Below, piece after piece: positions 12,885-14,686 of a DNA stretch of 21,312 bases. The stretch is taken from the IMG/VR virus record IMGVR_UViG_3300025128_000413, positions 1 through 21,312 of that record. One strand, written 5' to 3'. Within the stretch, counting starts at the first letter, position 1. Every line of letters begins with the position of its first letter. This DNA comes from a virus. The notes below the pieces were generated by a model. It had not been told where the DNA came from and searched no databases. It was given only the letters and a program-made list of their open reading frames with translations. A program made the translations under genes and the position numbers.

Positions 12885-13637
12885 TTATTGTTTTTCTTGT
12901 TGTACTTTACCTTGTTCTAATCCAGCGGCTACTTGCGTTAATTCTGGTTTTTGTATTGAAATACCCGCTAATCCAAGTATTCTATTAACCAACTCCCCTT
13001 GATCAGAAGCGTGTAGTTCGAAATCAGTTGAGATACCAGGGTTGTAAAGAGCGTCTATGTTTGACTGACCACCAGTAAATACTGTATAACCCCAGTTTAC
13101 ATCTACAGGTTTTCTTATATACCACATTTCAAGGTCGCCAAACTTACTTACCCTCAACACACCTTCAGGACTAGGGTTTCCAGCTATACCTACTCTAGTT
13201 ACAGTTGCTATTGGTCTACTGTCTGTCGGTTTTGTTAACGGTGAGTTAGCAAAGTTATTAAAATCTTTTGAGTTTACAATTTCAACGTTTTTACCGTCTA
13301 CAATTATTTGACTAATTCTATATATGTTGTTTGGCGCATTTGGCAAGCTATATTCTCCTGGTGAATCTACATCTTCCCAGTTTGTAGTTGTTAATGGATC
13401 GGCATAATGTTCAAATATTTGTATTTTTTGCTCTAACAAACTAACCATATCAGCATAATTAGTATCGTTGCCTGGTACTCTTCTAAATTGATTAAGATCA
13501 TAAAAGTACTGCTCAAATATTGCCATCTGTGCTTGGTTAGCAAATAAATTAAACTCTTGAGGTGTTATATAACCTCTTTGCTCTTTATTAGCTAATGCTA
13601 AAACTTTTTGATATACCGTGTCTACATTTATAGCCAT
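12885..13637 (-). CDS. Conserved crAss-like neck/structural protein, 250 residues
   Basis: The N-terminal half is helical and carries the pattern VYQKVLALANKEQRGYITPQ, EFNLFANQAQMAIFEQYFYD, LNQFRRVPGND, followed by a helix (ADMVSLLEQKIQIFE). I recall this as a very conserved block of a structural protein placed just upstream of the tail-tubular gene in crAss-like and marine phages. The C-terminal half is beta-rich (RISQIIVDGKNVEIV, EGVLRVSKFGDLEMWYIRKP), then FELHASDQGELVNRILGLAG, and ends in a Gln/Lys-rich tail. A 4-base gap to the 454-residue connector gene and a shared strand point to a partner in the neck, possibly an adaptor ring on the portal. The exact ring position is inference. The start is preceded by AAATTATG. 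Confidence 0.85.
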   Translation of the reverse strand: MAINVDTVYQKVLALANKEQRGYITPQEFNLFANQAQMAIFEQYFYDLNQFRRVPGNDTNYADMVSLLEQKIQIFEHYADPLTTTNWEDVDSPGEYSLPNAPNNIYRISQIIVDGKNVEIVNSKDFNNFANSPLTKPTDSRPIATVTRVGIAGNPSPEGVLRVSKFGDLEMWYIRKPVDVNWGYTVFTGGQSNIDALYNPGISTDFELHASDQGELVNRILGLAGISIQKPELTQVAAGLEQGKVQQEKQ

Positions 13638-13645
13638 AATTTCTT

Positions 13646-13810
13646 TTATTTATTATAAAAAGGAAACTTTTTATTTAAAGCTTCTCTTCTTTCTTTACAC
13701 CCGCAATCTTTTTTTGTAACCTTACTAACAGTGTCCACTGCTTTCTTTATACCTGTTAATTTTGTAAATTTTTCAACTAAATCTCCAAAACCTTGTATTT
13801 TGTTTTCCAT
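13646..13810 (-). CDS. Small CxC-motif protein, 54 residues
   Basis: A short frame runs from ATG 13808-13810 to TAA 13646-13648. The product starts MENKIQGFGDLVEKFTKLTG, continues through an amphipathic helix, then KKDCGCKERREALNKKFPFY and a short end. The Cys-Gly-Cys followed by Lys/Arg-rich residues and L-N-K-x-F-P matches a very small protein type I recall in many marine phage structural blocks, with no known function. The CxC pair could bind metal or form a disulfide, but two cysteines alone are not a complete zinc site unless the protein dimerises. It fills what would otherwise be a 230-base gap, ends 8 bases before the next ATG, and follows a strong RNA hairpin whose 3' arm ends 12 bases before the start. 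Reality as a gene is supported by the fit into the gap and the family-like C-terminus. Confidence 0.72.
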   Translation of the reverse strand: MENKIQGFGDLVEKFTKLTGIKKAVDTVSKVTKKDCGCKERREALNKKFPFYNK

Positions 13811-13822
13811 ATAATTTAATTT

Positions 13823-13861
13823 TGTAGTTTACGATCGCTCCGTAGAGCGACCGCACCTACA
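13823..13861 (-). promoter_or_regulatory. Stable RNA hairpin with UACG tetraloop in the leader of the CxC gene
   Basis: Read on the minus strand, an 11-pair stem (13830-13840 with 13845-13855) closes on a C(UACG)G tetraloop. A second 5-pair stem, TGTAG with CTACA (13857-13861 with 13823-13827), lies outside a 1-by-2 internal loop. Two of the inner pairs are G-U on the minus-strand RNA but would be A-C mismatches on the plus strand, so the fold suits the transcribed strand. No U-tract follows, so it is not a canonical terminator. It lies 6 bases after the stop of the 272-residue gene and 12 bases before the CxC gene start. Possible roles are 3'-end protection or processing of the upstream message, or control of downstream translation. 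Confidence 0.7.
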
Positions 13862-13867
13862 GTTAGA

Positions 13868-14686
13868 TTAATTTAATCTTTTTTCAATATTGGAGTAAAT
13901 CTCCATTCCTTCGTCAGTTTTAAACCAAGCGGCTAAAGCTGAGTAAGGGTGTTCGTCAAACGGAACGTTCATTAACTTTCTATCATTAGAACCCCAAGTA
14001 AAAGTTCTTTGATCAGAAGATAATTTAATTATTCCCATTTCAGTTGCTTTAATACCAAAGTTTCTAAGTTGAACGTTGTCATCATTTACTAATTCTAAGA
14101 ATAAAACTGGGTTTCTCTTAGCGTATAACAACAAATCTCTTTTAAGTTCTTTAGAACTCATCTCTGACACCTTAGAACCTACCTCTACACGCATAACTGC
14201 TTCGGCCATATCTATATCTAAACTTTGAGCCGCGTTTAACGCTTCAATCTCCATTTCTATATCTTCGACCTCATAAGCTGCTGTAAGTTGTGGTTGGTTT
14301 TCGTAATAAATTTTATCTTTCATAGGGTGATATAAAGATAATAATTTTTGTAATACAACTTTGTTTTTTGGCACTTGTAAAACGCCGTTTCTAAAAATAA
14401 TATGCGATAATCTTTGATCACCTTTCATTTCATCTACAAAGCAAGTAATTTGATTTTCACAATACTTTAGTTCTCTTTCGTAACCCTCTTTTTCATCAAA
14501 CCAGTATATACCTGCTGATTTAATAGACTTACTTAATGGTGTTCCTCTTTTTATAAGATATGTTCTATCTTTAACCTCCCATTGAGGTTCTTTAGATTCA
14601 ATTTTTTTAGGTTTTGGTGTTTCAACAACTGGTGTTTCAACAACAGGTACCTCTACCACTTCTTTTGTTTCTTTTTTCTTTGCCAT
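13868..14686 (-). CDS. Conserved head-region protein of unknown function, 272 residues
   Basis: Residues 1-35 are a low-complexity lysine and Pro/Val/Glu/Thr leader with a doubled PVVET unit. Residues 36-272 form a conserved-looking body: WEVKDRTYLIKRGTPLS, IYWFDEKEGYERELKYCENQ, KNKVVLQKLLSLYHP, IEMEIEALNAAQSLDIDMAE, SSKELKRDLLLYAKRNPVLF, DNVQLRNFGIKATEMGIIKL and FDEHPYSALAAWFKTDEG. I recall this block from proteins placed right after the capsid gene in marine phages of this type; their function is unknown to me. The helical body, the position next to the capsid gene and the disordered N-terminus suggest a capsid-associated or head-completion protein. The gene is bracketed by an intrinsic terminator in front and a stable hairpin behind, so its expression may be uncoupled from that of the capsid gene. 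The start follows TATATTATATTATG. Confidence 0.85.
   Translation of the reverse strand: MAKKKETKEVVEVPVVETPVVETPKPKKIESKEPQWEVKDRTYLIKRGTPLSKSIKSAGIYWFDEKEGYERELKYCENQITCFVDEMKGDQRLSHIIFRNGVLQVPKNKVVLQKLLSLYHPMKDKIYYENQPQLTAAYEVEDIEMEIEALNAAQSLDIDMAEAVMRVEVGSKVSEMSSKELKRDLLLYAKRNPVLFLELVNDDNVQLRNFGIKATEMGIIKLSSDQRTFTWGSNDRKLMNVPFDEHPYSALAAWFKTDEGMEIYSNIEKRLN

Follow-up and report, generated by a model that had tools for sequence, protein, structure and literature searches.

Between two virion genes of a marine phage lies a hairpin that, judged by comparison with its relatives, acts as RNA on the transcribed strand, is under selection for its fold, and is homologous to a U-tract terminator that relatives have at the same gene boundary. 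The window (the whole stretch of DNA analysed, a virus record of 21,312 nt) carries this hairpin on the minus strand at positions 13861–13823, in a 57-nt gap between the stop codon (13868) of a 272-aa gene (13868–14686, minus strand; phrog_34748) and the ATG (13810) of a 54-aa gene (13646–13810, minus strand). The 54-aa gene, the CxC gene, has no Pfam or PHROG match; its product has the conserved end DCGC..R...LN..FPY and recurs in relatives, where it is sometimes missing. Further downstream is the gene of a 250-aa virion structural protein (12885–13637, minus strand; phrog_14543), which in many relatives follows the hairpin directly.

The hairpin folds on the minus strand as UGUAG-G-UGCGGUCGCUC-UACG-GAGCGAUCGUA-AA-CUACA. 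A five-pair outer clamp, formed by the 5′ arm UGUAG (13861–13857) and the 3′ arm CUACA (13827–13823), is joined through a 1×2 internal loop (G/AA) to an inner stem of 11 pairs, two of them G-U, that is closed by a C(UACG)G loop (13844–13841); the inner stem and loop (13855–13830) constitute the conserved core. Refolding reproduced exactly the 11-pair stem, C(UACG)G loop, outer 5-pair stem and 57-base gap of a preliminary description of the sequence. The fold energy is −27.4 kcal/mol, compared with −10.1 ± 2.5 kcal/mol in shuffled sequences (z-score of −6.98; none of 200 shuffles as stable). The clamp 3′ arm occupies the place of a terminator's U-tract and is followed by a 12-nt A/U-rich spacer (13822–13811, minus strand), which together with the initiation region of the next gene contains neither a Shine–Dalgarno sequence nor TAnnTTTG; class A relatives (defined below) are A-rich at positions −3 to −12. 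A search of the window against Rfam gave matches at chance level, none of them at the hairpin.

The capsid protein of the window is 39–48% identical to those of Maribacter phage Panino, Manatee Spring podovirus and the Flavobacterium elemo phages, and Cellulophaga phages also match it. Capsid-gene relatives are also present in MAG contigs that bear the labels Sphingobacteriales, Saprospiraceae and Cytophagales; because a few bins with such relatives carry other labels, a host among the Bacteroidota is likely rather than proven.

Scanning IMG/VR with the 272-aa protein and its relatives yielded 252 usable loci that differ from one another over the final 300 nt of the gene. In the clade of the window (172 loci) the gap starts nearly always with a strong hairpin, which is found at the same gene boundary in more than 120 relatives and varies in sequence. 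Loci of this clade were assigned to classes by script, with two moved from '?b' to B after inspection. Class A, a hairpin without a U-tract, comprises 122 loci (123 including one freshwater locus); class B, a U-tract terminator followed by the conserved motif CTAACCTTYCRCTTTATTATGTAACTAT, 29 loci; class C, a U-tract without the motif, six loci; and class D, in which the 272-aa gene is not immediately followed by a hairpin, 15 loci. The class A loops are mostly UNCG, with CUACGG in 57, CUUCGG in 43 and CUCCGG in two of the 123. A covariance model built on class A scores 51.5 bits at the hairpin, its sole strong match in the window (the runner-up scores 16.1 bits). Of ten longer contigs, eight contain one strong match to the model and two contain none. 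A dispersed repeat was rejected on the basis of one strong match per genome. A second strong hairpin without a U-tract (TTACAGGCTCACTAGAAAGTGGGTCTGTAA) was seen outside the predicted ORFs at locus L333 (contig G007, 33816–33845, minus strand).

Selection at the level of RNA is indicated by the pattern of substitutions. Over ten loop-anchored positions, the 44 distinct class A core hairpins contain 368 Watson–Crick pairs, 70 G-U pairs, one A-C pair and one other; finding class A hairpins by folding the transcribed strand favours G-U somewhat, and a ratio of 70 to 1 is far beyond that effect. Across 71 aligned sequences, 98.9% of cells are paired and eight of the ten pairs show double-sided changes (116 cells), whereas none of 500 shuffles matches any of these measures and slid pairings reach at most 56%. 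Of 111 relatives, 96 retain at least four pairs of the outer clamp, of which several versions occur, and the internal loop varies from 1×1 to 2×3. The covariation and the excess of G-U over A-C argue that the hairpin acts as RNA on the transcribed strand; a DNA palindrome or an RNA of the opposite strand was ruled out by the G-U asymmetry and by far lower model scores on the other strand. The function as minus-strand RNA claimed in the preliminary description is thus borne out in relatives, where the stem is present in the same gap and its changes are compensated. Strong covariation and G-U asymmetry likewise contradict a chance palindrome, an unused relic or a DNA-level element, for which no support was found and which we regard as extremely improbable.

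The position of the hairpin in loci with inserted genes indicates that it belongs to the gene boundary rather than to the 272-aa gene. Class D loci have one to three additional small genes behind the 272-aa gene; where the gap beyond them is readable, the last of these inserts is followed by a terminator (AATAGCCATCC-N4-GGGTGGCTATTTTTTTT), usually accompanied by a related motif downstream. The hairpin therefore appears as a boundary mark, unbound to the 272-aa gene, and the earlier suggestion of a tie to this gene was rejected from these loci. The inserts lie between the 272-aa and CxC genes (for example at L078, 4900–6250, and L060, 4857–6147), and many begin with a YLYF-like motif; they possibly encode exchangeable virion surface proteins. 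A control element specific to the CxC gene, also proposed earlier, fails as well: among 114 class A loci, 38 have a small ORF next and 76 a large one, so that in two thirds a large ORF, mostly the 250-aa homologue, lies directly downstream. Retention of the hairpin before small and large ORFs alike makes a regulator dedicated to a single gene less likely.

The GC-rich, stable RNA hairpin of a terminator is present at this boundary, and the directly following U-tract is absent. No U-tract accompanies the hairpin on either strand of the window, and a terminator in either direction was rejected by sequence. Of the 10 nt that follow the inner stem in class A, 64% are A and 20% T, and TTTT is seen in none of 123 loci; instead of a U-tract come first the 3′ arm of the clamp, paired and A-rich, and next the initiation region of the following gene, which is rich in A as well. 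The statement that the element is not a simple terminator holds in the same genomes in which the terminator of the capsid gene is U-rich (120 of 120). The U-less hairpins are also the more stable, with a median of −22.4 versus −17.9 for the capsid-gene terminators. The comparison element in the window (14739–14722, minus strand) is the UUCG-capped CCGGGGC-UUCG-GCCUCGG followed by CCUUUUAUUUUAUU; a U-rich hairpin occurs there in 167 of 169 window-clade relatives, and the next gene mostly lacks a recognisable promoter. Expression of the 272-aa gene may rest on leakage through the capsid-gene terminator.

From the stem to the next AUG the distance in class A is 8–23 nt in all loci but one, mostly 8–20 nt with a median of 13 nt, compared with a median of 55 nt in U-tract forms with the motif. 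This short distance leaves no room for a promoter, and neither sigma-70 promoters nor TAnnTTTG were found on the minus strand of the 57-nt gap in the window. As no recognisable promoter separates the genes, those downstream are presumably served by read-through, although a promoter of another type is possible. The distance from stop codon to stem is not decisive as a cause of read-through, capsid-gene terminators lying at a similar distance. A literature search for terminators without a U-tract in Bacteroidota gave nothing usable.

At the equivalent boundary, more distant relatives carry terminators. Panino, ctfjg026, elemoE and phi38:1 have a U-tract terminator in the corresponding gap, followed directly in the last three by a match to TAnnTTTG, a promoter element described for Bacteroidota (PMC6847099). 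In the freshwater group, a hairpin with a U-tract is present in 73 of 74 loci and a promoter match in all 74. Within the window clade, either promoter-like motif is found in 0 of 122 U-less loci versus 29 of 35 U-tract loci; the paired sign test for U-tract versus motif gives p = 0.125, the independent changes being few and clustered on the tree. The arm AGCCACTC is common to 19 class A and 21 class B loci at this site and occurs three times elsewhere in 1.5 Mb, which ties the two forms together and indicates that the U-less hairpin is homologous to the U-tract terminator.

Well supported branches of the tree force at least seven changes of class A. The outgroup carries U-tracts, but the most parsimonious reconstruction has the U-less form at the root of the window clade, so that the terminators of classes B and D may have been regained or exchanged. 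The motif CTAACCTTYCRCTTTATTATGTAACTAT comprises 28 nt and lies after the U-tract terminator, approximately 45–75 nt past the stop codon of the 272-aa homologue (L138, L262 and L273). It is nearly invariant in class B and occurs once per genome in all five class B genomes searched. The motif departs from TAnnTTTG and may represent a promoter or a regulatory site of another type. A tentative reading, somewhat short of an even chance, is that the clade switches repeatedly between a terminator with a promoter-like motif and a U-less clamped hairpin joining both units, with the stem ending or tuning the transcript.

For the U-less form, we favour with moderate confidence a terminator-related intercistronic hairpin that would now be read through and would stabilise or define the 3′ end of the upstream segment. 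A message-stabilising 3′ end was among the roles offered in the preliminary description. The hairpin would act in cis as an intercistronic RNA of a long late transcript, between the genes at the capsid end and the head genes that follow. Since the U-tract is missing, RNA polymerase would be expected to read through and transcribe the downstream genes; the message would be cut or trimmed downstream, and the UNCG-capped stem would then block 3′-to-5′ exonucleases. By defining and stabilising the upstream 3′ end, the stem would set the level of this segment apart from that of the downstream genes, giving segmental mRNA stability as in selective RNA processing and stabilisation (SRPS). The features that characterise an SRPS-type element are found here, namely a stable stem-loop without a terminator tail at the 3′ end of a gene within a transcription unit, the two genes presumably sharing a transcript as no recognisable promoter lies between them. 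Against stabilisation stand the six class C relatives, whose U-tract is accompanied by no known promoter, and the capsid-gene terminator, after which TAnnTTTG is usually missing too, so that leaky terminators within this transcript are also normal. The link between U-tract and motif, moreover, depends on few independent changes, and a uniformly short distance to the AUG is equally compatible with a translational element.

In the Clostridium cip-cel SRPS system, stable stem-loops likewise lie at gene 3′ ends within an operon, 28 of 33 such intra-operon structures lack a U-run, the downstream gene is still transcribed, and the mechanism serves genes of a multi-subunit complex (PMC4423207). Processing and stabilisation were measured in Clostridium, whereas the present hairpin is recognised from sequence, is borne by a phage and has kinship with a terminator occupying this site.

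Rather unlikely, and the strongest of the alternatives, is a weak or host-specific terminator or pause site that, lacking a U-tract, lowers downstream transcription rather than stopping it. The homologous and positional equivalents are U-tract terminators, and U-tract forms that lack a recognisable promoter are known from this boundary (class C) as well as from the end of the capsid gene. Yet the position of the U-tract is occupied by the paired, A-rich clamp arm, and the U-tracts kept at the capsid-gene terminators in 120 of 120 of the same genomes imply that the polymerase uses them. In Escherichia coli even a full terminator near a stop codon is read through (PMC4824070), although the capsid-gene terminators here are equally close.

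Somewhat less probable again is a translational element for the next gene, which would keep the A-rich initiation region unstructured or would couple or block re-initiation. This would suit the narrow stem–AUG spacing of class A and its A-rich start context, which resembles that of Bacteroidota (PMC6847099), but the hairpin is kept before differing downstream genes, the motif-bearing U-tract forms stand far from the AUG, and, in the window, folding predicts no alternative pairing between the hairpin and the start region.

A site for endonuclease processing, for example by RNase III, in which the asymmetric internal loop would mark the cut, is improbable in our view. Intercistronic hairpins with an asymmetric internal loop serve as T7-type RNase III signals in late phage mRNA. 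The present hairpin resembles them in position and, in many relatives, in combining a stem, an asymmetric 1×2 or 1×3 internal loop and a lower stem; however, it is shorter (approximately 16 pairs), its lower stem is short, its loop is variable, and cleavage would be putative.

Compared with Rho-independent terminators, the hairpin shares the GC-rich stem after a stop codon and a site that is a terminator in relatives, and differs in lacking the U-tract in 122 window-clade loci and in possessing the extra clamp stem instead. The CUUCGG hairpins of T4 and other phages (Tuerk et al. 1988, cited in PMC8948821) are very stable, UNCG-capped, closed by C-G and mainly intergenic. The present element (CUACGG in the window) shares with them the C(UNCG)G tetraloop on an intergenic stem; unlike in that description, UACG is as common as UUCG, and there is one copy per genome at one conserved boundary, with no established sequence relation to those hairpins. 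No published description of the hairpin was found in the literature searched; the element is new, and its kind, an intercistronic stem-loop, is already known.

The hairpin is a strongly supported structured RNA, hitherto uncatalogued, that belongs to a well represented marine phage group. With some relatives bearing a terminator at this place and others a U-less hairpin, the group lends itself to a natural comparison of how phages set the relative amounts of capsid protein and other head proteins; the same comparison bears on whether Bacteroidota stabilise message segments with stem-loops.
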